NCBI RefSeq assembly: GCF_014279995.1
Contig: NZ_CP047935.1
Span: forward strand, 2,687,494-2,751,493
Reading direction: 5' to 3'
DNA: 64,000 bases
From: Synechococcus sp. BIOS-E4-1
GTDB lineage: Bacteria; Cyanobacteriota; Cyanobacteriia; PCC-6307; Cyanobiaceae
Made by a program: the position numbers and the translations under genes. This document shows, piece by piece, positions 3,581-63,236 of the stretch (positions are counted from its first letter, which is position 1; each line of letters opens with the position of its first letter). The notes beneath the pieces were generated by a model. It was not told where the DNA came from. It searched no databases and saw nothing but the letters and a program-made list of their open reading frames with translations.

Positions 3581-3710
3581 AATCGATCAGATTCCACTTA
3601 CAGGCTGGAATCAGTACATTCGGAAGCTGGTGACGGCATGGCTCCAGGGCACTCAATCCGCACCGTGGTTAGGGCGGTTGGTGTTGGCTGAGCAGCCTTG
3701 CTGTAACTGA

Positions 3711-3760
3711 CACCCCGGATGGATTCAAACCATCGATCGACGGCATAAACGGCAATTTTC
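3711..3760 (-). repeat. tRNA-Arg(UCU) 3'-half remnant, degenerate
   Basis: Reads on the minus strand as a decayed anticodon arm, T-arm (GGTTTGAATCC) and 3' acceptor side. It keeps the flank GGCTGA...AGCC seen at the other copies. The 5' half of a tRNA is absent. Confidence 0.55.
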
Positions 3761-3769
3761 AATTCCGTT

Positions 3770-4315
3770 GAGCAAGGATTTTTTTTCTATGACTGGTTTG
3801 TAAATGCCTGCGGGGCATGGGTGAAGACTCTGAAACGGGCGTTTCGTCCAATGGTGCTCACATCAGTTTTCTCTTCCGTCAATGGCAGTTGACGCGCCAA
3901 TCAAGTCCAGAACCATGGCGGTCAGCCGAGCTGGCAACAGTTCAAAGCTCAGCAGCTCAGAGCAACGAGGGCAACGATGACGATGGCGGCGCTGATGGGC
4001 TCCATGGCGTTCTTCTGTCTGAATTCACCATCGATCAGATGGCTTGAATTCACCATCCCCCTTTCGAGGGAAAGACCCTGTGAGCACCATCACAGCCCTG
4101 CTTGAGGTCTGTCATCGATTCCAAGGTGGATCCCGGAGATGGTGTGCCCATCGAAACCGTACAACTCTCCAAAGCTCGTAAGAGCAATGCCTCGCTCTCA
4201 TCACTGGGGGGGATTTTCTGCAATGACTTCTGCCAAAACAACGCCATCGAAGCCCGGGCAATTGTGCTCAGACGCGCGAGATAAACCGCTCCTACTCACT
4301 TCTGCCCTTTGAGAT
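3770..4315. other. Decayed composite-repeat sequence
   Basis: Continues the repeat that follows the tRNA remnant (the CTGAAACGGGCGTTTC segment near 3830). At 4235-4255 it has a fragment reading NNAIEA, like the C-terminal part of the DUF1651-like family. No intact gene. Confidence 0.4.
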
Positions 4316-17204: not shown

Positions 17205-17434
17205 TAACTATCGAAAGCCTATATCGCGCAGGCGACTTGATCACCGTGCAGGTGCTCGTATAAAAAGCTTTTCTGTCAGATCGTTCTTAATGCTGCTCTC
17301 GTTGGGTTGTGCTCCATTTGAGTTGGTTGCTCGGGAGTTGGGTGGTATCCGCATAACGCACTCTACGTTCTCTTCAAGAGTTTAGTATTGCTTTGAATTG
17401 CCCCACAATGGCATCATGTTTCCCGATATTCAGC

Positions 17435-18040: not shown

Positions 18041-18420
18041 AGAGTTGCACCCTGATCGACTCGAAGCATCGACCAGCTGCTTCGAAGCCAATTTTCAGCC
18101 CTGTCGTCGTCAATAATTTCCAGACTGTGAGAAAGCTCTTAATTCCTGGGGCAACTGGGGGCGACCCAGAAAAGGCTCGATGATCCGGCATTCTTTAACA
18201 GAACCACTTTGTTTATGGGATCGATCAATTGTCTAAACGCCTGTCTTTTTTCTTACTTGCTGGGGAGGTTTCAGGCGCGTGCTTCAAATGCGGATCCTGT
18301 TTCTTTGGACAGAGTCTTGGCGCGACGGGTTTCAGTAGCATCCTCTGGCAGGTGGTTGCTCTATAACCACCCCTTAGGATCGAAACAGGTGAGCTTTTGG
18401 ACCATATATCTTCGAACTTG

Positions 18421-26970: not shown

Positions 26971-27176
26971 GACGCTTCCTGATGGATTCAAACCATCCAT
27001 CGATCAGTGTGGAGCCAACCGTACGTATTGATCTTGCCTTGATGGCGGCAGCTCCTGTTATCCAACGTGGCGTGATTCCAAACAAGGACCGCTCACCTGT
27101 TGATCGCCATGTACCGAAGCACGGTGTTGGTTGGTTAATGAACGACCGGGAGGAAGGTCTGCAGTTTCTGGAATGA
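26971..27176. repeat. Composite repeat: tRNA-Arg remnant and DUF1651-like relic
   Basis: Partial T-arm and acceptor remnant at 26971-27003 on the minus strand, then on plus IPNKDRSPVDRH, KHGVGWLMNDREEGLQF and stop. The DUF1651-like gene is truncated after about 35 codons. Confidence 0.55.
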
Positions 27177-29740: not shown

Positions 29741-29869
29741 AATGGCTCAGACTCGTTTTTCAGGCTGAAATCAGCTCAGGCAGAAGCTGGCGACGCCAAG
29801 GCTCCAGGGCACAAAACCCTCACCGTTTTCAGGGCTGTTGGTTTTGGCTGAATAGCCCTGCTGTAACTG

Positions 29870-29912
29870 ACGCCCCCTGATGGATTCCAACCGTCGACCG
29901 ACTGCCTTTTGA
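29870..29912 (-). repeat. tRNA-Arg(UCU) 3'-half remnant
   Basis: T-arm and acceptor side well kept (CATCAGGGGGCGTCAGTTAC on the minus strand), anticodon arm damaged. Confidence 0.6.
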
Positions 29913-30090
29913 GCAGCTGTTCTTTGCCTCGAATTGGACTCCATTTCCTGCCTGCACTGTTCGAGGATCAGTTCTCGGTTCAGCAGAGCGAGGCCGCCCC
30001 TATCAATCCACTCGCTTCAGCCAGGTTTGTTGATCAGATTGCACACAGAAGTGCATTTGCTTGTCAAGCTGTGCCGATAGCACTTAATAA

Positions 30091-31483: not shown

Positions 31484-31917
31484 TGAAATCCTTGCTGAAA
31501 CTGAGGCCCCCTAGTGAATTCAAACCATCGACCGACTGCTTAGAAGGCAATTTTCAGACCAGTCGTATAAAGGGTTTTCATTGCTATCACATTGTTTTGA
31601 ATACCTGAGGTTGATAAGAGGCGACCCTGCACAGGGGGGTACTGGAGCTATCTCAGGCAGTGGTTCCAGTTTTTCGGTTGAGAGACCAACTGCCTTCAAA
31701 GCAGTTGGTCTTTCGCTGGGAGGGCATGTTTCAGGCGGGTGGTTCAGATGTGGATCTCCGCCTCTTAAAGCAGAGTTTTGGGGCGCTGGGTGTCAGATTC
31801 CTTCAGGCTTCATCGATGCCCGACAAGGAGAAGGTCACTTGTCGACAGGCATGCGCCCAAGAATGGTATCGGTTGATTGATGAACGCCCGGGAAGCAATG
31901 GTCTGCAGCTTTTATAA
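31484..31917. repeat. Composite repeat: tRNA-Arg remnant plus DUF1651-like relic
   Basis: tRNA remnant at 31504-31550 (minus strand: CTTCTAAGCAGTCGGTCG, intact anticodon loop), a spacer with CAACTGC...GCAGTTG and GACCCTG segments, then a decayed frame (PDKEKVTCRQACAQEW...LIDERPGSNGLQL) at 31818-31915. Confidence 0.6.
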
Positions 31918-35665: not shown

Positions 35666-35712
35666 ACGCCCCCTGATGGATTCGAACCATCGACCGACTG
35701 CTTAGAAGGCAA
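35666..35712 (-). repeat. tRNA-Arg(UCU) 3'-half remnant, well kept
   Basis: Minus strand: anticodon loop CTTCTAA with 3' stem GCAGT, then CGGTC, T-arm GATGGTTCGAATCCATC and AGGGGGC. The bases 5' of the anticodon stem are not tRNA. Confidence 0.75.
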
Positions 35713-35876
35713 TTTTCAGCCCAGTCGTAGCAGGGGTTTTCAAGGCTATGGCTGGGTTTTTAATGCCTGGGGTCGATTGGGGGTGACCCTGAAAAGGGCA
35801 TTACTGGAGCCATCTCAGGCAGTGGCTCCAGTTTTTCGGTGGTTCGGCCAACTGCCTTTAGAGCAGTTGGTTTTTC

Positions 35877-40589: not shown

Positions 40590-41000
40590 AGAAGCCGTGC
40601 TGTGACTGACGCCCCCTGATGGATTCGAACCATCGACCGACTGCTTAGAAGGCAGTAATTGAGCCCAGTCGTAGCAAGGGGTTTCAGGGCTATGACTGGC
40701 TTTTTAATGCCTGGGGTCGATTGGGGGCGACCCTGAAATGGACGTTTCTGGATACAGAAGGCAAGCTGTATCCAGTTTTCTTGTGGATCGACCAACTGCT
40801 TGTCGAACAGTCGGTCTTTCGCTTGGTGGGCAGGCGATTTCTCCAGACTTCACCGATGCCGAATAAGGACCGCCCACAGGTTGAACGGCACCCACCAAAG
40901 AACGGTGTCGGCTGGTTGATAAATGATTGGGAAGGAAGTGTCTGCAGCTTCATCAACGCGAATCCAACAGCTCATGCTCAATTGGTCATGGTGAAAACAA
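40590..41000. repeat. Composite repeat, best-kept copy
   Basis: tRNA-Arg(UCU) 3' half at 40609-40655 (minus strand, full anticodon arm ACTGC CTTCTAA GCAGT and T-arm), spacer with GACCCTGAAATGGACGTTTC and CAACTGCTTGTCGAAC, then on plus a DUF1651-like frame from 40857 (MPNKDRPQVERHPPKNGVGW, INDWEGSVCSFINANP) that is lost after QLVMVKTRK. Confidence 0.7.
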
Positions 41001-44599: not shown

Positions 44600-44866
44600 T
44601 CATTCGCATCGTACAACCGACACATAGCACTCAGAGATAGGAACACTCAACCGACAGTCGTCACTACCCCCAGCCGCGCCTTCCAGTTCTTTTTCAGAAA
44701 TCATCATTGATTGAGTGTTCTTTAAGTCGTCATCGGAAATACTAAACCCAGACTCTTTCGCAATTGCAAGAACTGCATCAGGATTCGATGCAGCTTTGAG
44801 CTTCTCCTGAAGGCTGGTGTCGCCTTCGACTTTTTCTAGGAACGCTTTGAGCTGTTCTTCTGACAT
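44600..44866 (-). CDS. Nif11-leader lanthipeptide precursor
   Basis: 88 aa. Leader MSEEQLKAFLEKVEGDTSLQ to EKELEGAAGG; core starts SDDCRLSVPISECYVSVVRC and ends in Glu, with three Cys and four Ser. Confidence 0.87.
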   Translation of the reverse strand: MSEEQLKAFLEKVEGDTSLQEKLKAASNPDAVLAIAKESGFSISDDDLKNTQSMMISEKELEGAAGGSDDCRLSVPISECYVSVVRCE

Positions 44867-47095: not shown

Positions 47096-47538
47096 TTACA
47101 AACATCTTCCCAGAGGTGAGAGACAGCGATCGAGTGGTCGATCCAGATTGCCGAGGTACCTTCCCCCAGCAGCAGCTTCCAACTCTTTATCAAAGAGTGG
47201 TTGAAGCTCTGCCTGGTTGGATGTTGGAACAGCGTCCTTGGCTCTTAGTTGATCACGTATTCAGCGGCGGGCATGTTGAATTTCCCGTCTTTGGCCCATT
47301 CCGCGTAGAGATCCGCGCCCATGGTCACCTCGGCGGTGAACTTCCCCAGCGTCACGTTGCTGTGGCCCTTGCTCGAACTGCTTTCAGTGCGGGTGTTGAT
47401 GTGTTGTTTCTGGTTTTGGATGTCCTCTTCGCGAGGCGAAATCCAGAGTCCCCATGCCTTTGTGTTGATCTCTTCCCGAGGGTTCATCGATTCGTAGCTG
47501 ATGAGTCCACCATCCCCGGAGGCCAGGGGTGGGCGCAT
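47096..47538 (-). pseudogene. Frameshifted GG-core peptide precursor, non-Nif11
   Basis: Upstream frame (47538-47245) is protein-like: NTKAWGLWISPREEDIQNQK ... AKDGKFNMPAAEYVIN, stop. A second frame overlapping its end reads QLRAKDAVPTSNQAELQPLF, DKELEAAAGG and core RYLGNLDRPLDRCLSPLGRC plus Leu. One frame change near 47250 would fuse them into a ~145-aa precursor with a GG site and a two-Cys core. The leader is not the Nif11 type. Confidence 0.5.
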
Positions 47539-47754
47539 CACCTGATCGGGGGGTTTCGATGACAAAACTGCAATGGACAGATAAAAAAAGAGGAGGGCCC
47601 CACCCTCCTCAGATCGACGCGTCTTCAACTTTCCCGTCCTCAGACGAGCTAACAGTGCAGAACGGCGAACAGATACGTCGTAGTTATAAATACTTAGGCG
47701 AGCATCCCCTCACTTTGGGTTTCGGTCTGGTGAGCTTCCTGCATGCGGGAACTT

Positions 47755-47889
47755 TCAGCCTTCGGCCTCGCGGCTGTAGAGCTGCGAGCTGATCGCCATC
47801 AGCGCCAAGAAAACAGTGCTGATGGACAGAATTACGAGACTGTCGATGGTCTTTGACCTCTTCTGGAGTGGAAAGACTCTCGCAGAGAT
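47755..47889 (-). pseudogene. Possible fifth microprotein copy, no start codon
   Basis: TIDSLVILSISTVFLALMAI then SSQLYSREAEG follows in frame right after the stop of the microprotein at 47890. The layout copies the coupled pair at 41444/41536, but no ATG is visible. Confidence 0.35.
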
Positions 47890-48021
47890 TTAATCCGAAC
47901 TTTCCGTCTCAACCTGGACAGTCAGCCGATCACTGAGCCCAGCTGCCTTGTAAAGGCTGAGCGTGAAGCAAGCAGCGCCAAAACTGACGATCAGAACTAG
48001 GAGGTCGGTGGTGCCGAACAT
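47890..48021 (-). CDS. 43-aa single-pass microprotein (family copy)
   Basis: MFGTTDLLVLIVSFGAACFT then LSLYKAAGLSDRLTVQVETE. Nearly identical in its first 27 residues to the peptide at 14030, with a longer acidic tail. Confidence 0.6.
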   Translation of the reverse strand: MFGTTDLLVLIVSFGAACFTLSLYKAAGLSDRLTVQVETESSD

Positions 48022-48583
48022 GAACTTTCTGCTGATGAACAAATGTTAAGCGGCTCATTGCAGAATGTAAAGCGGATATCCGTAACGGCTTTCGCTGCCC
48101 GCGCTGTCCGGGTCCAGCTGGACAGTGAATCGCTCGCTTGGGGGATGCGCCTTCACCACCCTCTCAGCGACGGTGAATTGTCTTTAACTAATAATTACTG
48201 CGCTCAAATGTCGATCAGATCAGCGCAAGCGACACCACAACAGCACTGGTGAAATGGCCAACATCACGGCGCGGCTGCTTTGTGAGGGGAGGCCGCGTGA
48301 TGACGAGCCCGGTGACACCGCCATTTCCGCCGGGCAGATCGTCATATCAGCCACGTGGGTGAACAGGATCAAAAGTCGAGTGGATGTCCGCAAGCGACAC
48401 CAAGGTGACGATCAGGTCAGCGACAACACCAAACGACGCTGCCGCAATGATCAACATCAAAATGTGATCGCATCCTCTGAGTTCTTGCGGTCACGTGACG
48501 ATGAGTCCGTCAACAGCTCCTGCCGGACAAGTCGTCATGCCTGCCACCCGGATTGAACGGGATCACCCGGTCGAAGTTCCTAA
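48022..48583. other. Decayed DNA with internal repeats
   Basis: Imperfect internal repeats (GTGATGACGAGCCCGGT at about 48297, GTGACGATGAGTCCGTC at about 48494) and CGCAAGCGACACCA twice. No intact frame with good composition. Confidence 0.4.
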
Positions 48584-48854: not shown

Positions 48855-49118
48855 TCACCACCTGGGCTGACACCGCTTCCAACCACCTGACTTCTGCATG
48901 GTTTCCAAGGCTTCGATGGCGTTGTGGCGCAGCATCCTGCGAATCACTGGCTGACCACCGCCGCGTAATGGCCTGGGCTCGACGATGACCCACTGGGCAT
49001 GAGAAGTCGGATTGGCGTTGGTGAAGCTGCAGACCTTCCCCTGCTGATCATTCAGCAACCAGCCGACACCATTCTTTGGTGGGTGCCGTTCAACCTGTGG
49101 GCGGTCCTTGTTCGGCAT
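48855..49118 (-). CDS. DUF1651-like protein, intact repeat-type member
   Basis: 87 aa. MPNKDRPQVERHPPKNGVGW, LLNDQQGKVCSFTNANPTSH, AQWVIVEPRPLRGGGQPVIR, RMLRHNAIEALETMQKSGGW. It serves as the reference for the many broken copies in the window. Convergent with the metallothionein gene. Function unknown. Confidence 0.65.
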   Translation of the reverse strand: MPNKDRPQVERHPPKNGVGWLLNDQQGKVCSFTNANPTSHAQWVIVEPRPLRGGGQPVIRRMLRHNAIEALETMQKSGGWKRCQPRW

Positions 49119-49182
49119 GACGCCACGATGGCGAAACGGCCTTGCGAATGCTGGGCAAACTGGAACCTGCAATCAGTTGTTC

Positions 49183-49449
49183 ATGCCAGAAACCACCAGC
49201 CCGAAAGTCGAACTGACGTGTCTGCAGGGGTTGGCTGATCTGGAACGAATCGAAGGGCCATTTCTGAATGCACTGACCGCAAGCGACCCCGAGGGAGCGG
49301 CGGTCATGCTGCGTTTGTTGCTGGCTCACATGGCATCGACCAGCAAACGGGTGATGTTGGCAATGGTGCTGGACCGGGTGGATGCAGGTGACCTGGGCAG
49401 CTTCAAACCGACAAATCACCCCGGACTGCAAAGTGCTGCAGAAGCCTGA
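49183..49449 (+). CDS. Unknown 88-aa helical protein
   Basis: MPETTSPKVELTCLQGLADL, then LNALTASDPEGAAVMLRLLL and a Ser/Lys-rich middle. Soluble, likely all-helical. A copy with an in-frame stop lies at 51088. Start fixed by comparison with that copy. Not recognised. Confidence 0.6.
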   Translation: MPETTSPKVELTCLQGLADLERIEGPFLNALTASDPEGAAVMLRLLLAHMASTSKRVMLAMVLDRVDAGDLGSFKPTNHPGLQSAAEA

Positions 49450-49585
49450 AACAGGTCTGCAAAAGGGTGAGAGCAGTGCTCTCACTTTTTCGTCAAACCC
49501 TGCTTGCAGCGGATTGCAGGCACTTGCGGGTGAGAGCAGAAATCCAGCCCCTGACTAGAAAACCCTTGCAATGACTGGGCTCGGG

Positions 49586-49633
49586 GACGCCTTCGTAAAG
49601 CGTGGGTCGCCTGTTCAAGTCAGGTCATCGGCT
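49586..49633 (+). repeat. tRNA-Thr(CGU) 3'-half remnant
   Basis: ACGCC TTCGTAA AGCGT forms an anticodon arm with CGT at the anticodon; GCCTG TTCAAGT CAGGT forms a T-arm; CATCGGCT fits the acceptor 3' strand. No D-arm or matching GCCGATG 5' strand is found upstream. Confidence 0.65.
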
Positions 49634-49921
49634 TAAGACTCAAACCCACTTACGGCTGGAGTTTTCCGCTGTAACTGGGTTTTTTCTTTGAGCGCATTTT
49701 TGCCTTTGCTCTCACCTTCATGGCTGCCACGGCCCAATCGATCACAAGAATGCGCAGCAGCTGCCCTAAAGCCTCGTCTGTCCAAAACATGAGGTGCAAG
49801 GTCTTCCTGAGCGTTCGATCCGGCAAGGGAGACACCCCCCGCCAACACCGAGACGCTGCCAATCGCCTGGGCCGCTGACACCGTTCCTGAGAGAGTTCAG
49901 CTGATCACCGCACTACAGACG

Positions 49922-50116
49922 TTGGTAGGTGAAGGTTTCGACCTGCGTGATGCGGTCGTCAGGTCCACTGAGCCCGCTACGGCCACACGTCCAACAGTGG
50001 CCAGCCCTTTTCCCAGTATCCCCGAGACAACCTTGTCCCATCGCAGATCAAAGCAGCTTCGGCATTGCCGCCCTAGGTCAGGGACTGACATTCCCGAACT
50101 CTGGTTAGAGAGATGA
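49922..50116 (+). CDS. Small coupled gene, copy A (uncertain)
   Basis: Frame reading LVGEGFDLRDAVVRSTEPAT, open upstream without ATG (VPERVQLITALQTL); TTG start is a guess. Its stop overlaps the ATG of the next gene (ATGA), which argues that it is real or was. Confidence 0.35.
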   Translation: MVGEGFDLRDAVVRSTEPATATRPTVASPFPSIPETTLSHRRSKQLRHCRPRSGTDIPELWLER

Positions 50117-50229
50117 TCGATCGGGATGATGCTTGGGGTTTCAATATTCCGATGCTTGAAGGCGCCAATTTCAGCGAATCGCCAGGTTCTCAGCGATTGC
50201 TGGTTGAAGCGCTGATAGCGCAGCTGTAA
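50113..50229 (+). CDS. Truncated copy of the 51955 gene
   Basis: MIDRDDAWGFNIPMLEGANF matches the protein at 51955, then diverges and stops after 38 aa because the repeat ends. Confidence 0.45.
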   Translation: MIDRDDAWGFNIPMLEGANFSESPGSQRLLVEALIAQL

Positions 50230-50332
50230 TAGCAACTGCTCTCAGGCAGGAGGCTGGCTTCACGTTGGAGTATTCGGCTGACTCAAGCCTCGTTTGAATT
50301 GATCCGGGACAAGTCCCCTATCAGGGCCAAAG

Positions 50333-50539
50333 TCACCACCCGGGCTGACACCGCTTCCAGCCGCCAGACTTCTGCATTGTCTCCCATCCCTCAATCGCGT
50401 TGGGCCTGAGCATCCTTCTGATGACGGGCTGCCCCCTGCTGCGTAATGGCCTTGTCTCCACGACGACCCACTGCGCTTGTGCGGTTGGCATGTCATCCGA
50501 GGCCCGCAGAGCTAACCCATCTGCGCGTGGAAAAGTCAA
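50333..50539 (-). pseudogene. DUF1651-like, C-terminal two thirds
   Basis: TAQAQWVVVETRPLRSRGQP, VIRRMLRPNAIEGWETMQKS. N-terminal PNKDRP part missing. Confidence 0.55.
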
Positions 50540-50658
50540 TGCAGACGACTCTTCGGGACAAGGAGGTCAATCAACGGCCGGTCTTTGATTGGGATCAGTG
50601 AAGTCCGGCTCATCAGCTCTGTACAAGGTGAAACTCAGAATGCCTGCTGAGCATTTGG

Positions 50659-50925
50659 TCAACGCATATAGCCGCCGTAATTACAAAGCTTGTAGGCCGT
50701 TGCCAAAGCGTTTTTTGACCAGATTTGCCCGGGATCTAGCCAGTTTTGCCCGGAATCAATTGTCGCAATAGCGGCATTGAGGTTGTCATCACGCCAGCCG
50801 CCACCTGCCTTCAGTGCGATTGGGCAGAGTGCCCTGAGAGCTTTCTTTCGAGCCTGTTTATCCGGGTCTGCATGAGCAGGGAGGCTGACGGCAAGAGCCA
50901 GCAGGAATAGGGCGATGACCTTCAT
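50659..50925 (-). CDS. Secreted protein, 88 aa
   Basis: Signal peptide MKVIALFLLALAVSLPAHA, cut before DPDKQ. The mature part has two Cys (RALCPIAL, YKLCNYGG) and a central WRDDNLNAAIATIDSGQNW. It interrupts the tandem-unit pattern, so it may be an insertion. Not recognised. Confidence 0.65.
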   Translation of the reverse strand: MKVIALFLLALAVSLPAHADPDKQARKKALRALCPIALKAGGGWRDDNLNAAIATIDSGQNWLDPGQIWSKNALATAYKLCNYGGYMR

Positions 50926-51087
50926 GCCTGGAGAATGCCTGATCAATTGATTATCTACCACTCTGCTGCCCGAGAAGCGACGGCCCGCTAAGTACTGACC
51001 AGCAGGCATCCCTAGCCTTGCATAACGCAACGATGACGAAACCACCTTGCTGATGCTGGGCAAAGTAACTCCTGTAATTAGTTGTTC

Positions 51088-51354
51088 ATGCCTGAAGCCA
51101 CCAGCCCGCGGTTCGAACTGACATGTCTGCAGGGGTTGGCTGATCTGGAACACATCGAAGGACCATTTCTGAATGCAATGGCCGCAAGCGAACCCGAGTG
51201 AGAGGCGGTCATGCAGCGTTTGTTGCTTACGCTCATGTCATCGACCAGCAAACGGCTGATGTTGGCAATGGTGCTGGACCGTCTGGATGAGGATGACCTG
51301 GACATCTTCAAACAAACAAATCAGCCCGGACTGCAAATTGCTGCAGAAACCTGA
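51088..51354 (+). pseudogene. Copy of the 49183 gene with an in-frame stop
   Basis: MPEATSPRFELTCLQGLADL to AASEPE, then TGA at 51199 (GGA in the intact copy), then EAVMQRLLLTLMSSTSKRLM to the same C-terminus. Same total length (88 codons). Confidence 0.75.
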
Positions 51355-51429
51355 AACAGGTCTGCAAAAGGGTAAGAGCAGAAATCCAGTTCCTGACTAA
51401 AATCTCCTTGCAACAACTGGGCTCGGAGC

Positions 51430-51475
51430 CTCTTTCGTAAAGCGTGGGTCGCCTGTTCAAGTCAGGTCATCGGCT
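51430..51475 (+). repeat. tRNA-Thr(CGU) 3'-half remnant, copy 2
   Basis: TTTCGTAAAGCGT, GGTCGCCTGTTCAAGTCAGG and TCATCGGCT as in copy 1; the 5' anticodon-stem strand has changed. Confidence 0.6.
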
Positions 51476-52010
51476 TAAGACTCAAACCCACTTACGGCTG
51501 GAGTTTTCCGCTGTAACTGGGTTTTTTCTTTGAGCGCATTTTTGCCTTTGCTCTCACTTTCATGGCTGCCACGGCCCAATCGATCACAAGAATGCGCAGC
51601 AGCTGCCCTAAAGCCTCGTCTGTCCAAAACATGAGGTGCAAGGTCTTCCTGAGCGTTCGATCCGGCAAGGGAGACACCCCCCGCCAACACCGAGACGCTG
51701 CCAATCGCCTGGGACGCTGACACCGTTCCTGAGAGAGTTCAGCTGATCACCGCACTACAGACGTTGGTAGGTGAAGGTTTCGACCTGCGTGATGCGGTCG
51801 TCAGGTCCACTGAGCCCGCTACGGCCACACGTCCAACAGTGGCCAGCCCTTTTCCCAGTATCCCCGAGACAACCTTGTCCCATCGCAGATCAAAGCAGCT
51901 TCGGCATTGCCGCCCTAGGTCAGGGACTGACATTCCCGAACTCTGGTTAGAGAGATGATCGATCGGGATGCTGCTTGGGATTTCAATATTCCGATGCTTG
52001 AAGGCGCCAA
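51430..52010. repeat. Large direct repeat, copy B (~580 bp)
   Basis: Matches 49583-50160 almost base for base. Contains the duplicate small frame 51764-51958 that overlaps the ATG at 51955. Confidence 0.85.
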
Positions 52011-52284
52011 TTTCGTCGAGGTTTCTATGCCTCGCGGTCTAATGCAATTCCAAAAGTGGTTTCAACTCACTCACCCGAACACATCCAACCTTTCGCTCTG
52101 GGAGGTTGTTGAATGGGGGACGTTGGTGGACCTCAACACCAACCTTCGGGGCGGCGTGGTGCTCGTCAAAGAGGACCCTTTGAATTCCATCATCCTTGAT
52201 GAGGGAAAGCCTCTAAAGGTAATCCTCGAGGGCCGCCTGATTAAAAACAGAGTCAGCGGAATGCACTCTCCATCGCTGCAATGA
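51955..52284 (+). CDS. Unknown 109-aa protein
   Basis: MIDRDAAWDFNIPMLEGANF, LMQFQKWFQLTHPNTSNLSL, GGVVLVKEDPLNSIILDEGK. Well-balanced soluble protein with a likely beta-rich C-terminal half. ATG overlaps the stop of the preceding small frame. Family not recognised; a truncated copy is at 50113. Confidence 0.65.
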   Translation: MIDRDAAWDFNIPMLEGANFVEVSMPRGLMQFQKWFQLTHPNTSNLSLWEVVEWGTLVDLNTNLRGGVVLVKEDPLNSIILDEGKPLKVILEGRLIKNRVSGMHSPSLQ

Positions 52285-52324
52285 ATGGGTGCTGTGATGC
52301 TGCCGACAGGGCCAGCAAGGCAAT

Positions 52325-52350
52325 AAAAAAACCCCACTCGCAGCGGGGCC
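52325..52350 (-). terminator. Hairpin terminator
   Basis: CCCCGCTG...AGTGGGG stem then seven T on the minus strand, about 80 bp after the stop at 52428. Confidence 0.65.
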
Positions 52351-52427
52351 ATGAAAAAGTTTGCCTAGATATGGATAGCGACTAGCACCGAACCCGGAAT
52401 AAGCATGGGGATTAGATAACAGTGCAA

Positions 52428-53066
52428 TCAGGATGCCTGAGGGCAGGGCCTTCTACCGCGTTGTGTTGTAAATACAACCTTATATGTATTATTACGCTGA
52501 TTTCGATCCCAATTCATGCGGGCCGCCTGAGCAAAAAATTCACCCCCTCCAACCGGACAAGCCGCAGGAGATGCCAGCTTCACTCCATCTTCATTGCATG
52601 TCTCACCGGGACGCAGGGAATTAAGGGGACCAGACCCTCGGCAAATAACGACATTACGATCGAATGTTCCGGAATAAGCGGCATCAACCGTCCGCCGAAT
52701 TTGAATTTTATTGGAAAACGATTTACAATTTCCTTTACCTACGTTTTTATAGACCGGGTAAGCGCGAATGATCTGACTGGATGTATATGTACCGGGCGCT
52801 CTTACCGACCCGGAAGACCCGCCCACTGAACGATACCTAAAGGAACTGGTCGGAGTTGTAATCCTCCAGGACAGCCGGATATCACATTGACCAAACGGAT
52901 CCCGTAGGTCATCACGAATCCTTGGCCCTAAATTATCGATTGAGGGTTGAGGCTGAAAACGTTGAGGCAAGCTTTGGGAGCGGACTGAAGATAGAGATCC
53001 ACCCCAGACTGGCACCATCAGCGAAGCAGCAAGTGCACATTGACTGGCGCGTTTAATGTTGAACAT
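52428..53066 (-). CDS. Secreted protein, 212 aa
   Basis: Signal peptide CALAASLMVPVWGGSLSSV; the mature part is basic and Ser/Arg-rich with six or so Cys (GQCDIRLSW, KGNCKSF, VICRGSG, GETCNED, AACPVGG, RPCPQAS). Likely periplasmic or exported, disulfide-bonded. Family not recognised. Confidence 0.7.
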   Translation of the reverse strand: MFNIKRASQCALAASLMVPVWGGSLSSVRSQSLPQRFQPQPSIDNLGPRIRDDLRDPFGQCDIRLSWRITTPTSSFRYRSVGGSSGSVRAPGTYTSSQIIRAYPVYKNVGKGNCKSFSNKIQIRRTVDAAYSGTFDRNVVICRGSGPLNSLRPGETCNEDGVKLASPAACPVGGGEFFAQAARMNWDRNQRNNTYKVVFTTQRGRRPCPQAS

Positions 53067-54175
53067 GATAATAGAGAAAGATTGATTGAGGATTGACCAA
53101 GTCCCTCAATGTTTCAACCATATGGCCCTACTAACGCCCAGGATGTGAGACCAATCAAACAGATCTGTGAGGTTGATCACAACAGATCTCAAAAAGCAAC
53201 AGAAGATTATGCCAGCCTCCAAAAGAATCAATGATCACCATGACCAACTCCCATCCAACAAACAATTCCTCAATTTCTCTCATTCAACCAATCAAGTCAC
53301 CATCCGAACCGACTCGTTCTCAGACACCACACCGCTTCCAATTCGCTCAATCCCGAGCTATAGCCAAGACCTGCAGCTATCAACATCGCTGACCTTAGCT
53401 GCCATCAGCAGCTTTTAAAGAAGAGCTGGATTCATCTGATTATCACAGCTGATTAACTAGAGCCAACCGCTCAAAGCATTCTCAGCACGCAATTTAAAAA
53501 CCTGCCAAGGCCAGAGAAAGCATCCATTAGTGCCAGTCATTGCGACGATTCATGGAGTCACAGGAGGGCTCTAAGAGCAGTTCCTCAACACTCTATACAC
53601 ATGCTTAAACCATGCCACGAATCGTGCATCTTTCCTTCGAGACACCTAATCCATCCACTAGTTCGTTGACGATTTAACGAATCACTCGCCAGGCATGCTA
53701 ACTCGGAAGTTGTGAAATTGATGATTCTGCTTGTCTTCGAAGCTGACTTTACGGACCTATGTATAGAAATCTGGATTATTCATTGCCAGCCAGAGCAACA
53801 GCTTGAAGGCGTCCAGACACGGAATCGGCCTTATGAAGCGGAAGCACCAGTTCGCATGGACGCCCAAGGAACCATGGAGCGAAAAGGGAAACCTACCGAT
53901 CAACTCATCGACAACAGTATCGATGTGAAGCAGTGCAAAGAATACGTCCAACGGTTGTTGTGACGATGTCTTTAAGCGTCAACTGGCCTTGAACCACTTA
54001 CCAGCTCGAAAAGTCTCCTTTCACGTGAATTGCCAAACCTGTTGGCTGTGACCAACATCACAAAAGGATGAGAGCTGCGACAACAACTCTGCATGTGATC
54101 ACGGAGATCCTGGGCTCATCGGTGATCTATCACCGCCTCTCTCTAAGAGAACTCCTAATCCTCACCTTTCGACCA
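53067..54175. other. About 1.1 kb without a firm gene
   Basis: Weak plus frames at 53167-53418 (Ser/Thr-rich) and 53712-53963 (ends DVKQCKEYVQRLL) are possible but not supported by a start site. Confidence 0.35.
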
Positions 54176-55057
54176 ATGCATTTCGCCACCAAATCCCTCG
54201 CCCTGAGCTTCGCAGCAGCAGCTGGTTTAAGCGGCATCAATACAATCACCGCTCTCTCCGCCCAGGCAGCCACCCGATGCGACAGCGGAATGCTGCTGGG
54301 CCGCTACACCTTGAAATCGGAACTCAACAATAAATACGTGCGGGCCGGCATTGGTTCCGGTGCCTATGTCGGCGCCAAAAGCAACAGAGTGGGCGGCAGC
54401 ACCAGCTGGGAAACATTCGACATCTATGACCTGGGCAATCGCGATGGTCTCAACGGAGGTACCTATGCCCTGCGAAGTACGCAAGATCCCAATCGTTGGG
54501 TGAGTGTGAACTCTCAGAACGCACTGAAACTGATGCGTGGCTGCAACACTGCCAGCAGAAACCGTCTGTTCCGCGCCAACAGAGTCGGCAACATCCTGCA
54601 GCTTCAATCACTCTCCAATCAGCAATGGGTGATCCAGCGCTCCAACAACATGCTTTACGCCAATGCAGCGACCATGGGCGGCAACGTACCCAAAGCACTG
54701 CAATATCGGCTAACGCGCATCGGGTCCGGGCCAACGAGCCCCAGCCCACAACCGCAGGTCAACCTCAACGGCTGGTTCAGAGGCAATAACAAAGGCGTCT
54801 ATTCCGTACAACGCAGCGGCAATTCATTCCAAATGAAAGGCTTCCTCAATGGCAAGCCCTTCAATCTGATCACCGGTAACATCCAGGGCAACATCATTAA
54901 TGCCAGCTGGAAAAACTACTGCAATCGCAGCACAGGCTCCCTCAAACTGCGCATCACAAGCAACGGTCTGGTCAAAGTCGGCGGCAACCCTGGTTTCAAC
55001 ACCTCATGGTCTCCCACACAAAATCCAGGTTCCATCAGCAACACTCCTGATTGCTAG
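54176..55057 (+). CDS. Secreted fascin-like beta-trefoil protein
   Basis: 293 aa. Signal peptide LALSFAAAAGLSGINTITAL to AQA. Residues about 30-180 show beta-trefoil repeats as in fascin/actin-crosslinking-like domains: GRYTLKSELNNKYVRAGIGS, GGTYALRSTQDPNRWVSVNS, NILQLQSLSNQQWVIQRSNN. A Pro/Ser linker (PTSPSPQPQ) leads to a second small domain (GWFRGNNKGVYSVQRSGN). Probably binds surface polysaccharide outside the cell. Terminator follows at 55145. Confidence 0.75.
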   Translation: MHFATKSLALSFAAAAGLSGINTITALSAQAATRCDSGMLLGRYTLKSELNNKYVRAGIGSGAYVGAKSNRVGGSTSWETFDIYDLGNRDGLNGGTYALRSTQDPNRWVSVNSQNALKLMRGCNTASRNRLFRANRVGNILQLQSLSNQQWVIQRSNNMLYANAATMGGNVPKALQYRLTRIGSGPTSPSPQPQVNLNGWFRGNNKGVYSVQRSGNSFQMKGFLNGKPFNLITGNIQGNIINASWKNYCNRSTGSLKLRITSNGLVKVGGNPGFNTSWSPTQNPGSISNTPDC

Positions 55058-55144
55058 GGAGCCAGCTTTCAGTGAGCTGGCGCGGTAACGGCAGCGGCAC
55101 AACGGGGCCAGATTTAGCTAACGACAGCCAGCTCACACCTCCCC

Positions 55145-55171
55145 AAAACCCCGCCCGCTGCGGGGTTTTTT
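55145..55171 (+). terminator. Strong hairpin terminator
   Basis: AAAACCCCGC...GCGGGGTTTTTT, 88 bp after the stop at 55057. Confidence 0.8.
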
Positions 55172-55298
55172 CTTGCCTGTGATCAACATCACAACCACCC
55201 ATGACACAGCTCATCAACCCATCTCCCACTCTCAGAGATCTTGGGTTTATCGGTGGGACACACAGCACTTCCACTTCTCTCCCCACACCCTCGCCACC

Positions 55299-55775
55299 AT
55301 GAACCGCTCACTCTCCATCCTCTCCTCTCTCACCCTCTCCTCCGCTGCGCTTCTGTCTGTTCAGCCGCAAGAGCTCAACGCCATGACCATTGCTTTTGAC
55401 TGCTTTGAGCGCAGCACTGAAAAACTGGTTGCCCGCAGTGCCGTCGACATGACCAGCATGGCCATCAGCTGCCTGCCAGTTCCAGGCACAACCCTCACCG
55501 AGGATTCCGGCATCGATTCAGAGGACGATGACATCATTGTTGATCACACCGGTACAGGTGAAGATTTCGACCAGGATGCTGACTCTGACATCGACATTGC
55601 AGACGAAGACATTGGAAACGAAGACGTTGGGAACGAAGACATTGCCTACGAAGATGAAGACGTTTATGAAGATGAAACCAATCCTGAAGCTTCCACAGCC
55701 TCACAAATCGGTGAAGCCCTCGGCAAGCACATTGGCGATCTCTTAGTTCAGGGGCTTAACGATCTCTTCCGCTGA
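55299..55775 (+). CDS. Secreted acidic repeat protein, 158 aa
   Basis: Signal peptide LSILSSLTLSSAALLSV. A short Cys-paired domain (FDCFERS...SCLPVPGT) is followed by an Asp/Glu tract with short tandem repeats (DEDIGNEDVGNEDIAYEDED) and a C-terminal helix (IGEALGKHIGDLLVQGLNDL). The acidic tract may bind calcium or keep the chain extended. Paralogue of the next gene in the first domain. Confidence 0.65.
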   Translation: MNRSLSILSSLTLSSAALLSVQPQELNAMTIAFDCFERSTEKLVARSAVDMTSMAISCLPVPGTTLTEDSGIDSEDDDIIVDHTGTGEDFDQDADSDIDIADEDIGNEDVGNEDIAYEDEDVYEDETNPEASTASQIGEALGKHIGDLLVQGLNDLFR

Positions 55776-55969
55776 TCCTCGAATCATTCCCGCCACACCT
55801 TCCACGTAGATGCAAAACTTCTGCCCTACTCTCCACATCAAAAAGGCAAGCAGGGCCTCCAAGATGCTGAAATAACAAACCAACAAAGCCTCGTGTCACG
55901 GCGAGATCAACCCCTTCCATCGCCATAAGTTCTTTCCGAATCAAACGCAAACTCATTGATGATGCAGAC

Positions 55970-56560
55970 ATGCGCATAGTCCATCAAAGCGCTGCGGGTC
56001 TAATTCTCCTCGCTAGCAGCACACTCATCTTCACTCCAAAAGCCGATGCCAACGCTTATCGATGCTTTGATCGCCAGTCCGGCGAACAGGTCGCCATCAG
56101 CGACATCGACATCACCACCCTCAGCGTGAGCTGTCTTCCCAGCAACGGAACCACGACACCCCTCAGCAACGAGAGCGAATCAGAACCCGAAACGGTGCCA
56201 CCGAGCACAGGTTCCATAGTTGCCCCCTACGACGGGGAAGATGAATCCGAATCTGGGCAGCCTTTCCAGGCTCCATCGGACACAACACTTGACCCACTGG
56301 CTGCCCGAAGGGCAATCAACTTGGCTCGCGGAACAGCCGTTTCACTCAATGGTGGACTGAGTCAATACCGCCCTAGCACTTGCATGTTTGCCAGCGCCAT
56401 GGGCAACCCCTGCATCACCCGCTCTGATTCACAAGGCATTGAATTCACGATTCCAGGTGGTCCTCCAGGCTGGGAACAAAACGATGCAGAGCCAAGCGTG
56501 GTGACTGTGGTGGTGATTGCACCAGACGGCCGCTCCGTCTTGGAATCAAATAACAACTGA
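55970..56560 (+). CDS. Secreted protein, paralogous N-terminal domain
   Basis: 196 aa. Signal peptide SAAGLILLASSTLIFTPKAD; domain YRCFDRQSGEQVAISDIDIT...SCLPSNG parallels the gene at 55299. An acidic Ser/Glu linker and a C-terminal domain (TCMFASAMGNPCITR, VVTVVVIAPDGRSVL) differ. The two lie in tandem, 194 bp apart. Confidence 0.65.
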   Translation: MRIVHQSAAGLILLASSTLIFTPKADANAYRCFDRQSGEQVAISDIDITTLSVSCLPSNGTTTPLSNESESEPETVPPSTGSIVAPYDGEDESESGQPFQAPSDTTLDPLAARRAINLARGTAVSLNGGLSQYRPSTCMFASAMGNPCITRSDSQGIEFTIPGGPPGWEQNDAEPSVVTVVVIAPDGRSVLESNNN

Positions 56561-56967
56561 ACGAGCCTTCCCCCTTCGAGCCTCAAACGAATAACAAGAC
56601 AATCTCGTCCAACCGCTTTCATCAAGAGTCAACGTCAGCCGTTGAGTTCAAAACACAAAGACGAGACAGTAATCGATGGGGGACAGTCGCCGACGACAGT
56701 TGTTTCGATAAACTCGCTATCTCATTATCAGCAGATTGGCATAATTACTCAATGCCAGAGGCATGCTTGCACGGGTGCAAAATGTCCAATCCGCACAAGC
56801 ACAGCTCAGTATTCCACCCACATCAAATCACTTAAGCCTTGCAATGCGTTGGTCAACGTCACATCCCTTTTTCATTGTTTGTACTAACACTGCTAGCAAG
56901 TCCCTAAATAGCACTGCCATCCAAGATCAGCCTTTGAGCTTTCGGCCCAGCATCGAATGAGCCCATG
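56561..56967. other. No gene seen
   Basis: Short weak frames only. Confidence 0.35.
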
Positions 56968-57215
56968 TCAGATCAGTCCTGCTGCCACGAAAAGCCTCCA
57001 TCGCACCGTGATGAGCCGCAAACAGCTCATTAACAATGACGATGACGCAGCTGGATCACTGATCATGCCGCTTTCAATCAGGATCACCATCTCGGCCAGC
57101 CAATTGGGAAGGGAGGGGAGTTCTGCATAACTCAACCGATTGCTTTTTACATGGGCAGCGATTTCACCGGTGATCCAATCGGCGGCCAACTGGGAATCGG
57201 TGCCGGCAGCGACAA
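56968..57215 (-). pseudogene. gatB: gatB C-terminal fragment
   Basis: VVAAGTDSQLAADWITGEIA, AHVKSNRLSYAELPSLPNWL, AEMVILIESGMISD is the GatB-Yqey tail region of the Asp/Glu-tRNA(Asn/Gln) amidotransferase B subunit. Only about 55 of roughly 490 residues remain, followed by unrelated sequence. A functional gatB must be elsewhere. Confidence 0.7.
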
Positions 57216-57672
57216 CAGCCTTATGTCCTCAGCCATCAGACGCCCATCGGTGAGAACGTGCGTGTCGTACTGATACATGGCTCCTTTTTGCCACGCAAAC
57301 AAGACTTGTCTTCTCGCTTTTTTCGGTCTGCTCTTCCTGCAGATCCGACCTGGATGCGTCCGCTCTGTGCAGAGAAGGGGCTTGGCGCAGAGGCACCGAT
57401 CAGAGAGCTTTCCTGAAAGCCTCAAAGTCGTTGAGCAGTCAGCTTGCCGCCAGGGACCCCAGCCAAGACGAAGTGACCAGAGATTATTTCTTCTGAGAAC
57501 TATTTAGATGCGTAAAGCGACGCCAAGAATCAGCAGGTTTATGACGCCTATTTCATGAAGCTGTGCAACATGGGGCATGCGCACGCTCAAACGGCAACCT
57601 TTCGAAATGCTCTGCCTTCAGGTTTCCCTTAGATTTGGATCAACGTTTTTTCCGGGCTTTGCCCGCCGATCC
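57216..57672. other. No gene seen
   Basis: Low-quality frames on both strands; nothing else evident. Confidence 0.3.
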
Positions 57673-57977: not shown

Positions 57978-58175
57978 ATGGAGACGACGAGCTTTGAGCT
58001 CTTTTTCTTTGATCATTGCGAGGGTGTTCATGAGAACTTCCTACAGCGCCTCAAACCCCGTTGCCTGTTTGAGATCGGACTGCGCCCCTCTTGGGGCCAA
58101 CGTGTTTCAACCCTAATCGATCCAATCGGTCCTGGTGAGGTGAATACCGAACAACTTGTGCCGGGAAGACCGTAA
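57978..58175 (+). CDS. Hypothetical 65-aa protein
   Basis: METTSFELFFFDHCEGVHEN then a basic-hydrophobic middle. Moderately protein-like; no family. Confidence 0.35.
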   Translation: METTSFELFFFDHCEGVHENFLQRLKPRCLFEIGLRPSWGQRVSTLIDPIGPGEVNTEQLVPGRP

Positions 58176-61827: not shown

Positions 61828-61879
61828 CTGATTGCCGGTCACTGATCTCACAGCTCACTGATCCGACAGTCAGCCAACA

Positions 61880-61908
61880 AAAAGCCCCCTCGTGAGAGGG
61901 GGCTTTCC
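61880..61908. terminator. Bidirectional terminator
   Basis: AAAGCCCCCTC gtga GAGGGGGCTTT, an 11-bp perfect stem between the convergent phosphoesterase and psbA genes. Confidence 0.85.
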
Positions 61909-61945
61909 GATTCAGCTAAAGCTGAATCTCTTGGAGACTTCAGCC

Positions 61946-63025
61946 TCAGCCGATGGCGGGAGCTTGCAGAGCCACAGGAGTGGACTCAGCAGCAGCCAGG
62001 TCGAGGGGGAAGTTGTGAGCGTTGCGCTCGTGCATCACTTCCATGCCGAGGTTGGCGCGGTTCAGCACATCAGCCCAGGTGTTCAGGACACGGCCCTGAC
62101 CATCAAGGATGGACTGGTTGAAGTTGAAACCGTTCAGGTTGAAGGCCATGGTTGACACGCCCAGGGCGGTGAACCAGATGCCGACAACGGGCCAGGCAGC
62201 CAGGAAGAAGTGCAGGCTACGGCTGTTGTTGAACGATGCGTATTGGAAGATCAGGCGACCGAAGTAACCGTGGGCAGCCACGATGTTGTAGGTCTCTTCC
62301 TCTTGGCCGAACTTGTAGCCGTAGTTCAGTGAATCGTTCTCAGTGGTTTCGCGAACCAAGGAGGAGGTCACCAGTGAACCGTGCATGGCGGAGAACAGTG
62401 AACCACCGAAGACGCCAGCCACACCAAGCATGTGGAAGGGGTGCATCAGGATGTTGTGCTCGGCCTGGAACACCAACATGAAGTTGAAGGTGCCGGAGAT
62501 GCCCAGGGGCATGCCGTCAGAGAAGGAACCCTGACCGAAGGGGTACACCAGGAACACGGCGGAGGCAGCAGCCACAGGTGCGCTGTAAGCAACGCAGATC
62601 CAGGGGCGCATGCCAAGGCGGTAGGAGAGTTCCCACTCGCGACCCATGTAGCAGAAGATGCCGATCAGGAAGTGGAAGACAACCAGCTGGTAAGGACCGC
62701 CGTTGTACAGCCACTCGTCGAGAGAAGCAGCTTCCCAGATGGGATAGAAGTGAAGGCCGATGGCGTTCGAGGAGGGCACAACAGCACCGGAGATGATGTT
62801 GTTGCCGTAGATCAGGGAGCCGGCGACGGGCTCACGGATGCCGTCGATGTCGACGGGGGGTGCTGCGATGAACGCAACGATGAAGCAGGTGGTGGCAGCC
62901 AGCAGGGTGGGGATCATCAGCACACCGAACCAGCCCACATAGAGGCGGTTGTTGGTGGAGGTGACCCACTCGCAGAACTGCTGCCAGCCATTAGCGCCGG
63001 AGCGCTGCTGAATGGTGGTGGTCAT
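61946..63025 (-). CDS. psbA: Photosystem II D1 protein
   Basis: 359 aa. Full-length D1 with five membrane helices. Residue 130 is Glu ([10 protein letters not shown]), the high-light D1:2-type state. Manganese-cluster and redox residues are in place (Asp170 region, His190, [11 protein letters not shown] loop; C-terminal [16 protein letters not shown] where processing follows Ala344). The N-terminus [20 protein letters not shown] is that of marine Synechococcus copies. Thylakoid membrane. Confidence 0.98.
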
Positions 63026-63236
63026 GAGAACGGAAAAGAAGGTCTCCGAAGAGACGGTTACGGAAGGGCAGGAAGCCCTGCCAGTTGTGATTGTAAAGCA
63101 ACATTGCGCAAGATGTCGGCTGCTTTATGAAGCTGTCGTGAAGAACCATTGAGACCTCGCTCAGGCGCGGCCCAGGCCGAAGAGAGACCCCTAAAGGATC
63201 GCTTAAGATTCTCAGGTTGTGTCCCAGGAGACGCTC

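Follow-up and report, generated by a model that had tools for sequence, protein, structure and literature searches.

The window, the whole 64,000-nucleotide stretch of the Synechococcus sp. BIOS-E4-1 chromosome that was analysed, carries two tandem units, A and B, each containing the 3' half of a tRNA-Thr(CGU) gene. Half A (49587–49633, plus strand; nucleotides 27–73 of the tRNA) agrees with the intact gene at 46 of 47 nucleotides and half B (51432–51475, plus strand; nucleotides 30–73) at 44 of 44. The intact tRNA-Thr(CGU) is a single-copy gene, at 2515275–2515347 in genome coordinates, 222 kb from its halves and on the opposite strand. A 20-base T-arm word, allowed up to two mismatches, is matched three times in the 3.31-Mb genome, always exactly, at the two units and the intact gene, and its reversed control has no match in the same 3.31 Mb. 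In an ungapped 44-nt scan of the window, likewise, the Thr units give 44 and 43 matches, and no other place more than 25. The original prediction hinged on the remnant matching a tRNA-Thr gene of the genome, which both halves do.

The halves belong to a near-identical block of 581 bp (49592–50172 in unit A and 51434–52014 in unit B, plus strand), in which the tRNA half is accompanied by a terminator, the remnant of an integrase N-terminus and a further 167 bp. The two blocks agree at 577 of 581 positions, leaving four differences, and the predicted pair of tandem units, with a tRNA half and a repeated stretch of about 580 bp in each, is borne out. What had been read as coupled small genes, however, are not genes: tblastn with the intact integrase of 392 amino acids identifies them as a frameshifted and truncated remnant of integrase codons 1–39 and 41–108, at 49720–50044 in unit A and 51562–51886 in unit B, both on the plus strand.

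The intact integrase, a tyrosine-recombinase-like protein, adjoins tRNA-Thr(CGU) and is likewise 222 kb from the units. An intact integrase stands beside tRNA-Thr in BIOS-E4-1 and in four of 30 other genomes of the genus. The protein scores 15.5 bits in Pfam, below the cut-off of 27.1; R243, K269, YxxR, MGH and Y380 are invariant across 10 integrase sequences. The protein is thus far a putative recombinase.

Upstream of each block lies what appears to be the right end of an element. Unit A has a DUF1651 gene (48855–49172, minus strand; PF07864, 25.5 bits against a cut-off of 22), and unit B a DUF1651-like remnant (50333–50539, minus strand) with 78% DNA identity to it over 157 nt. The next gene, encoding 88 amino acids, is intact in unit A (49183–49449, plus strand), and its copy in unit B (51088–51351, plus strand) is interrupted at codon 38 by an in-frame stop; on both copies the prediction had been right. 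The 88-amino acid region is 85% identical between the units over 300 nt. Its codons indicate that this gene is under purifying selection among four Thr copies (dN 0.000–0.027 against dS 0.060–0.206 for the six pairs, over the first 68 codons). A 42-bp left arm then precedes half A (49540–49581, plus strand) and, in a more diverged form, half B (51382–51423, plus strand). In IMG/VR no relatives of the Thr integrase or of the 88-amino acid protein were found with single queries, nor with an alignment of the latter; an alignment of the integrase retrieved one contig, at 24% identity only, and no close viral relatives.

Downstream of block B, the plus-strand stretch 52015–57316 is what remains of an older Thr-site element, colinear with the relative G024 to 55053 and reaching the native 3' flank of tRNA-Thr, where the core genome resumes at about 57317. 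A third Thr half would be expected near 57.2 kb, where that flank resumes, and none was found there in the window scan. The last gene of unit B, described earlier as full, is indeed an open frame of 109 codons (51955–52284, plus strand); its status as a gene is doubtful, because the matching stretch of G024 contains stops and a change of frame. The relative G003 has the same right end and Thr half joined directly to the native tRNA-Thr 3' flank, and G001 has an empty tRNA-Thr site.

On this comparative evidence integration at tRNA-Thr(CGU) left the Thr units behind as debris, each of them ordered like an attachment junction. The right end of one element (DUF1651, the 88-amino acid gene and the 42-bp arm) would be followed by the tRNA 3' half and then by the integrase end of the next element, which had already decayed.

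Late copying of the Thr block

The two blocks differ at only four of 581 positions, whereas block B differs from the matching G024 stretch at 124 of 595 aligned bases (471 identical). Both blocks, moreover, share the integrase frameshift and truncation. Hence the alignments argue that the 581-bp block was copied between the Thr junctions recently, after the integrase had decayed. The original prediction of tandem integration followed by complementary decay is therefore right in part only: integration at tRNA-Thr(CGU) and the junction order stand, and for the block the complementary decay does not. It was also incomplete, since the units now lie far from the intact tRNA and the window holds, in addition, eight halves of tRNA-Arg(UCU).

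In its full form, that reading supposes two successive insertions of complete elements at tRNA-Thr, each then decaying in place. The junction order of each unit agrees with it, as do the right ends of A and B, which are only about 85% alike and so represent two different element ends. The defects common to both blocks, with so few differences beside the divergence from G024, speak against it, as do the reversed orientation and remoteness of the units, and this history is rather unlikely.

Copying may instead have proceeded by insertion of an integrase-less circle of 1.84 kb, or by conversion or duplication. In the first case the 1.84-kb unit, comprising tRNA half, block, DUF1651 remnant, 88-amino acid gene copy and arm, would be a minimal element inserted by the resident Thr integrase into the half already present. 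The tract of identity begins at the tRNA half, the expected strand-exchange site of the integrase; insertion of a circle would give the tandem order, and an intact integrase exists in the genome. There is, however, no second copy of the unit among the loci compared, and its 160-bp and 523-bp spacers are matched nowhere else among these loci, save for 52 bp at 81% at 2250829 of the BIOS-E4-1 genome. Furthermore, the start of the tract is not exactly placeable within an otherwise identical half, and conversion or template switching fits equally well. Movement as a minimal element is thus a tentative suggestion, somewhat doubtful, within the broader reading of late copying.

Arg halves and shared element ends

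The eight tRNA-Arg(UCU) 3' halves all lie on the minus strand. Rung 1 (40608–40656) matches the intact tRNA at 49 of 49 positions (48/48 in the scan), and rung 2 (35666–35714), which ARAGORN calls as a tRNA, at 46 of 48. The matches out of 48 are then 42 for rung 3 (31503–31552), 40 ungapped and 43 gapped for rung 4 (29869–29923), 34 ungapped and 36 gapped for rung 5 (26971–27018), 37 for rung 6 (18044–18093) and 36 ungapped and 39 gapped for rung 7 (16084–16131). Rung 8 (3708–3777) scores 35 in the scan, and a matching rung with its 594-bp downstream flank is present in G024. The eight rungs thus score 34–48 of 48, against 25 for the ninth place and 29 for the highest-scoring of 40 Markov shuffles. 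The higher the rank, the lower the identity (Spearman −0.76, p 0.028, with rung 8 entered as 38 gapped; −0.86, p 0.007, for the ungapped scan values), and the order is not strict: by one measure or the other, rungs 4 and 5–8 fall out of sequence.

Such a series is what repeated integration would leave behind. Integrative elements would insert again and again into tRNA-Arg(UCU) and tRNA-Thr(CGU), the inferred crossover lying in the anticodon loop, every insertion restoring the tRNA and displacing the old 3' half. Halves would therefore pile up as a ladder, the older rungs the more decayed, in which the succession of insertions is recorded. Rung 8, the outermost, is common to BIOS-E4-1 and G024, and for the inner rungs shared descent is not demonstrable. 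The flanks of rung 1 are indeed 85–87% like the DNA around a G024 rung at 119436; shared descent of this pair was considered and dropped, because G024 has that left-end sequence after its intact tRNA-Arg too. Six integrase queries gave no integrase next to tRNA-Arg in BIOS-E4-1.

The element ends themselves recur at different tRNA genes. The 88-amino acid gene is common to Thr, Arg and Val right ends, and the 42-bp arm to Thr and Arg ends, the arm of half A sharing 33 of 42 bases with that before rung 2 (35718–35759, minus strand) and 31 of 42 with that before rung 1 (40662–40703, minus strand). The best of 2000 random 42-mers from the window reaches 21 of 42. A clear left arm is present at only three of the eight Arg rungs (31–42 of 42 bases against the rung 2 arm); rung 6 has 23 of 42 at the same spacing, rung 8 a resemblance by eye only, with gaps, and rungs 4, 5 and 7 have 15–21, within chance. 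A 23-base motif, allowed up to three mismatches, has 19 matches and its reversed control none. The three matches with at most one mismatch all abut tRNA halves, the pattern itself having been drawn from two of these three. The other 16, with two or three mismatches, comprise eight members of a hairpin-plus-T-run family, two at tRNA-Ser sequence, the rung 3 arm and five unassigned sites.

Inversion between the Arg and Thr islands

In BIOS-E4-1 the Arg halves, like the Thr halves, are opposite in orientation to their intact tRNA. In the 15 relatives whose two tRNAs lie on a single contig, Arg and Thr are on the same strand and 114–221 kb apart in 11 and divergent in four, and the convergent arrangement of BIOS-E4-1, with 28 kb between them, occurs in none of the 15. 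The 3' flanks of tRNA-Thr in G001, G003, G011 and G021 match DNA of the window, and the DNA 3' of tRNA-Arg in G001 and G024 matches, reversed, DNA left of or within the window. The opposite-facing halves and tRNAs therefore appear to reflect a derived inversion, about 236 kb long, with one end in the Arg and the other in the Thr island, which would also be why the Thr units are distant from their tRNA and on the other strand.

The inversion probably took place through a 1.33-kb inverted repeat, R, the copies of which are 96% identical. R2 (47239–48565, minus strand) is the proposed right breakpoint and matches R1 (2498458–2499783, genome coordinates) in inverted orientation at 95.9% over 1328 bp. 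Among the repeats listed, of at least 100 bp, R is the only inverted one of at least 90% identity to join both breakpoint intervals. Across R, psbA, Nif11 and the larger element genes switch strand; small frames left of R1 occupy both strands. The whole of R occurs in no relative, so that no parental junction fixes the breakpoint. Homologous exchange between these copies, one in each island, would have flipped the segment, carrying the intact tRNAs and the Thr integrase to 2487–2515 kb and leaving the halves, now backwards, in the window.

Two further repeats were considered. The psbA copies (2496363–2497533, and 61871–63041 in the window) are 99.8% identical and inverted, and the inversion does not end there, because both flanks of the window copy are colinear with G001, G011 and G021. 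A nested second inversion through repeat X (2487332–2488073 and 2504332–2505073, 91%) may have occurred but is not needed, since with R as breakpoint the two X copies sit in separate elements and are oriented alike with respect to the tRNA of each.

The Thr integrase could itself have made the inversion, by exchange between an attachment site in the Arg island and tRNA-Thr, which by its geometry would likewise leave the tRNA intact at one end and an arm-half junction at the opposite end. However, the strand of the larger genes switches at R and not at the tRNA half, and a Nif11-like match that lies upstream of the Thr right end in G024 runs the way an exchange at R would predict, making this origin quite improbable. 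Misjoining of the contig through R is also improbable: a 1.33-kb inverted repeat of 96% identity does stand at both proposed ends, but the assembly is a single contig, 99.99% complete, long reads usually resolve repeats of 1.33 kb that differ by 4%, and the halves, right ends and blocks are independent of it.

Exchange at R is thus the preferred origin. In an unlikely extension of it, the attachment ends of tRNA-Thr would now be facing each other, so that the intact Thr integrase would be unable to excise the element and would invert the 222-kb segment instead, with an intact tRNA-Thr in either state, and would also have moved the integrase-less 1.84-kb mini-element; if true, the chromosome would have a tRNA-driven invertible segment.

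Against the reading of two islands split at R, cargo is common to both: the Thr element of G003 carries, without change of direction, stretches like those at 2492–2498 kb of BIOS-E4-1, which are here ascribed to the Arg island. On the halves, the integrase remnants, the arrangement in relatives, the shared right ends and the late copying, the window is very probably island DNA from repeated insertions at tRNA-Arg(UCU) and tRNA-Thr(CGU), split by inversion at R and with one block copied late. An ordinary kind of genomic island would thereby have been turned into an unusual arrangement.

Related island systems

Tycheposons have a satellite lifestyle, with transfer in phage capsids or vesicles. 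They were reportedly described from Prochlorococcus by Hackl et al. (Cell, 2023). Published accounts give them tRNA insertion sites, a tyrosine recombinase and variable cargo in marine picocyanobacteria (PMC10872708), and count them among proposed phage satellites (PMC11389934). By description the BIOS-E4-1 islands are alike in host, tRNA site, recombinase type and variable cargo, a tRNA insertion site and a tyrosine recombinase being found here in a marine picocyanobacterium. Flexible islands of Methylophilaceae are described as having recurring 20-bp tRNA-Lys repeats in an additive island and a large inversion, for which their authors see a link with a tycheposon; that description has no two islands exchanging attachment ends (PMC10872708).

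The ssrA islands of Dehalococcoides are reported to be tandem and bounded by more than 12 displaced 3' repeats of one RNA gene, with a conserved motif just upstream of the repeats, and those without an integration module are thought to be mobile together with others (PMC3146451). The many repeats in one orientation resemble the eight Arg halves, and the upstream motif may have a counterpart in the 42-bp arm, which precedes both Thr halves but is clear before only three of the eight Arg halves, weak at rung 6, seen by eye alone at rung 8 and absent from rungs 4, 5 and 7. As described, they use a serine recombinase and the tmRNA gene, whereas here the recombinase is of the tyrosine type and the sites are two or three tRNA genes, and that description includes no splitting inversion (PMC3146451) of the kind proposed for BIOS-E4-1.

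The Islander collection, in its published description, defines islands by an intact tRNA and a displaced 3' fragment, with an anticodon-centred crossover and tandem arrays; among 3919 islands it lists four tandems with at least three members, every one of which has an integrase and a fragment of its own, and it discards candidates whose fragment is opposite to the tRNA (PMC4383910). BIOS-E4-1 has an intact tRNA and displaced fragments for both Thr and Arg, and a tyrosine integrase beside tRNA-Thr with conserved catalytic positions and a weak Pfam score. Its Thr fragment, however, is on the opposite strand, 222 kb off and not downstream in the orientation of the tRNA, and would be filtered out under the orientation rule so described. 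Downstream fragments in the same orientation are present in G003 and G012 (Thr) and in G024 (Arg). Islands split by inversion may hence be under-counted by finders that require orientation.

A divergent tyrosine integrase, cluster158946, is reported to be missed by common profiles and to lie near tRNAs in islands of Prochlorococcus and Synechococcus, with groups that follow the tRNA (PMC10187409). The likeness is by description, the tRNAs given there being tRNA-Phe or tRNA-Cys, as against Thr(CGU), Arg(UCU) and others here. Integrases beside two different tRNAs in the present comparison are 60–65% alike, and with the same right-end module at several tRNA genes they offer a natural series on the change of target by tyrosine integrases.

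The Thr units and their integrase

The two-unit tandem proposed in the original prediction was confirmed in the 3.31-Mb, single-contig genome of Synechococcus sp. BIOS-E4-1 (G000). The near-identical blocks lie at window 49592-50172 and 51434-52014 and differ at 4 of 581 positions. The displaced tRNA 3' ends (halves) of the units do match tRNA-Thr(CGU) of this genome, as had been supposed, over 46 of 47 nt in unit A and 44 of 44 nt in unit B, and a genome search placed their T-arm word solely in both units and in the single intact tRNA-Thr(CGU) gene (contig 2515275-2515347, minus strand).

Adjoining that gene is an open 392-aa gene (L059:8951-10129, minus strand). Its Pfam score lies under the cut-off (15.5 vs 27.1 bits), and the protein matches an integrase in PHROGs (3.6e-07). 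Residues R243, K269, Y345-x-x-R348, M-G-H371 and Y380 are invariant across 10 sequences, which we take to be the tyrosine recombinase pattern with Tyr replacing the usual first His. In tblastn, integrase codons 1-39 and 41-108 map to both units in different frames, so that what had been read as small coupled genes in the block is not genes but an integrase remnant. The DNA homology ends at 50005 (A) and 51847 (B), with a further 167 bp common to both units. Among the 31 genomes of the genus set, G000 included, 17 hold matches to the integrase at 1e-20 or better. Integrases 60-65% similar to that of the Thr site adjoin tRNA-Arg(UCU) in G014, G016 and G019, and more distant relatives stand at most 1.5 kb from Arg, Val, Pro and Gly tRNA genes, while some others have no tRNA in reach. 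A search beside tRNA-Arg of G000 found no integrase.

Locus L141 of G024 is colinear with unit B and past it (window 51449-55053, 82.5%). With gaps omitted, the block agrees at 471 of 595 positions between B and G024, 455 of 576 between A and G024 and 577 of 581 between A and B. On the simplest reading the integrase truncation would predate the G000-G024 split and the block copy would postdate it. The near-identical tract starts where the tRNA half starts. The copy could have arisen as a 1.84-kb circle inserted by the resident integrase, or else by conversion or template switching, either of which would suffice. Compared with the fetched loci, the spacers of the 1.84-kb unit match no other place apart from a 52-bp stretch at another site of G000 (81%).

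The attachment site and its shared right end

G001 presents the empty site, with the native 3' flank directly after tRNA-Thr. In G003 one element of about 13 kb in all occupies the site, in the order tRNA, integrase, DUF1651-like sequence, 88-aa gene, 42-bp arm, tRNA half and native 3' flank. In the better-kept halves, whether Thr, Arg or Val, the tRNA match begins at nt 27-33, in the anticodon stem-loop; we infer a crossover within the anticodon loop.

Thr half A is preceded by an arm that has 33 of 42 bases in common with the arm of Arg rung 2 and 31 of 42 with that of rung 1. Of 2000 random window 42-mers, none shares more than 21 bases with a Thr arm. The right-end stretch of unit A (window 49115-49591) matches Thr-half right ends in G003, G012, G016 and G024, Arg-half right ends in G011 (91% of 271 bp) and G016, and sequence near the Val(UAC) halves of G000, there with 58 of the 88 aa; some match occurs in 12 of the 31 genomes. 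Across four Thr copies of the 88-aa gene (six pairs, first 68 codons), dN is 0.000-0.027 and dS 0.060-0.206, and the gene is under purifying selection.

Elsewhere in G000, about contig 3203544 (L208) and 952338 (L216), more insertion sites are indicated by two tRNA-Val(UAC) halves, accompanied by a relative of the 88-aa gene, and by a 47-nt tRNA-Ala(GGC) half that matches perfectly. Beside a motif match in the region of 1973733 (L054), a tRNA-Ser-like sequence breaks off, ~19 kb from tRNA-Ser(UGA) at 1954465, and is perhaps another displaced half.

The ladder of tRNA-Arg(UCU) halves

A search of the window with 42 distinct tRNAs returned tRNA-Arg(UCU) halves besides the Thr halves. The eight Arg halves, rung 1 (40608..40656) to rung 8 (3708..3777), are the top eight minus-strand places of an ungapped 48-nt scan, scoring 34-48 of 48. 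The next minus-strand place, the ninth, scores 25. No plus-strand place exceeds 26, and nothing in 40 first-order Markov shuffles exceeds 29. Rung identity drops with rank counted from the proposed intact-gene side (Spearman -0.76, p 0.028; with scan values -0.86, p 0.007), the order not being strict. Against the rung-2 arm, a clear arm is found at rungs 1, 2 and 3 (37, 42 and 31 of 42 bases); rung 6 has 23 of 42 at unchanged spacing, rungs 4, 5 and 7 have 15-21, and rung 8 shows a resemblance by eye only, with gaps. Among random stretches, 2 of 500 reach 24.

The ladder of G024 sits 3' of its intact tRNA-Arg, with scores of 48 (intact), 44, 47, 38, 41 and 36, each of 48. Rung 8 and its downstream flank occupy the same place in G000 and G024 (85.5% of 594 bp), and both rung 7 flanks occur in G024, where the half scores below the listed places. 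Common descent is not established for rungs 1-6. ARAGORN calls a tRNA-Arg(UCU) at rung 2 (window 35667-35737), where an Rfam scan reported no tRNA; this is a 3' half fused to an element end, and a tRNA annotation is unwarranted.

Order and cargo of the Arg and Thr islands

In G000, tRNA-Arg (plus strand, 2487245) and tRNA-Thr (minus strand, 2515275) are convergent and 28 kb apart, and all ten window halves point opposite to these intact genes. Fifteen relatives carry both genes on one contig, and the convergent order occurs in none of them. In 11 (G001, G004, G006, G007, G009, G010, G011, G017, G018, G021 and G024) the two genes share a strand, and Thr lies 114-221 kb 3' of Arg. In the other four (G013, G014, G020 and G023) Arg is on the minus and Thr on the plus strand, 230-293 kb apart; this arrangement hints at a further rearrangement close to the Arg island. 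In G001 and G011 the tRNA-Thr 3' flank corresponds to window DNA from 57481 onward, and in G021 to that from about 59477; in G003 window DNA from 57320 onward follows the Thr half. The DNA 3' of tRNA-Arg in G001 and G024 corresponds, reversed, to DNA left of the window, and in G024 also inside it.

Judged from these gene orders, a single inversion would restore both, with ends within 2487-2515 kb and window 40.7-49.5 kb. The best inverted repeat linking these intervals is R (2498458-2499783 vs window 48565-47239, 95.9% of 1328 bp); the other listed inverted repeats of at least 100 bp are mostly Nif11-like, at 67-84% identity. Left of the first copy of R lie psbA and three Nif11-like leaders on the plus strand, with small frames on both strands. 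On its right side the minus strand carries a Nif11-like leader, a beta-domain gene and the large Thr-element genes; Nif11-like genes at window 44-46 kb are also minus. These strands fit an exchange at R. The exact ends can only be inferred, because the whole of R is in no relative and cargo is common to the Arg and Thr islands. As the attachment ends are now inverted, an integrase acting on tRNA-Thr and half A would, from the geometry, flip 222 kb instead of excising the element.

Passages in published work describe tandem islands in Dehalococcoides, where displaced RNA-gene ends are preceded by a motif (PMC3146451), a tycheposon-linked inversion in Methylophilaceae (PMC10872708) and a family of divergent integrases in picocyanobacteria, found at tRNA-Phe and tRNA-Cys (PMC10187409). 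Islander reports 4 tandems of three or more among 3919 islands, and discards fragments reversed relative to the tRNA (PMC4383910). A marine Synechococcus comparison delimits islands by means of tRNA and mobility genes, and the words 'inversion' and 'tandem' are absent from its main text (PMC2441476). A literature search, with subscription papers mostly outside its coverage, returned no account of two tRNA islands with ends exchanged by inversion.

Nif11-like leader peptide genes are repeated in both islands (window 21500-46000; L060:5227-7514 and 17246-17518). One of them, window 44600-44866, was tested in NCBIfam, and its score is that of a Nif11-type RiPP precursor. A direct repeat (window 11472-11771 and 12864-13163; 99% identity, at least 300 bp, 1392-bp spacing) overlaps Nif11-like sequence. 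In the Thr element, one 834-aa frame (L059:5333-7837) joins a Topo VI B-like ATPase, a transducer and Topo VI A/Spo11-type Toprim parts; it is perhaps a topoisomerase of type IIB in fused form. The genes at L060:11265-12458 and window 61871-63041, presumably both psbA, are 99.8% identical over 1171 bp and inverted, the former being a second copy in the island next to tRNA-Arg. The window copy is adjoined by a PhotoRC-I RNA (window 63042-63083), which scores above the gathering score, as does a Glutamine-II riboswitch at window 58050-58105.
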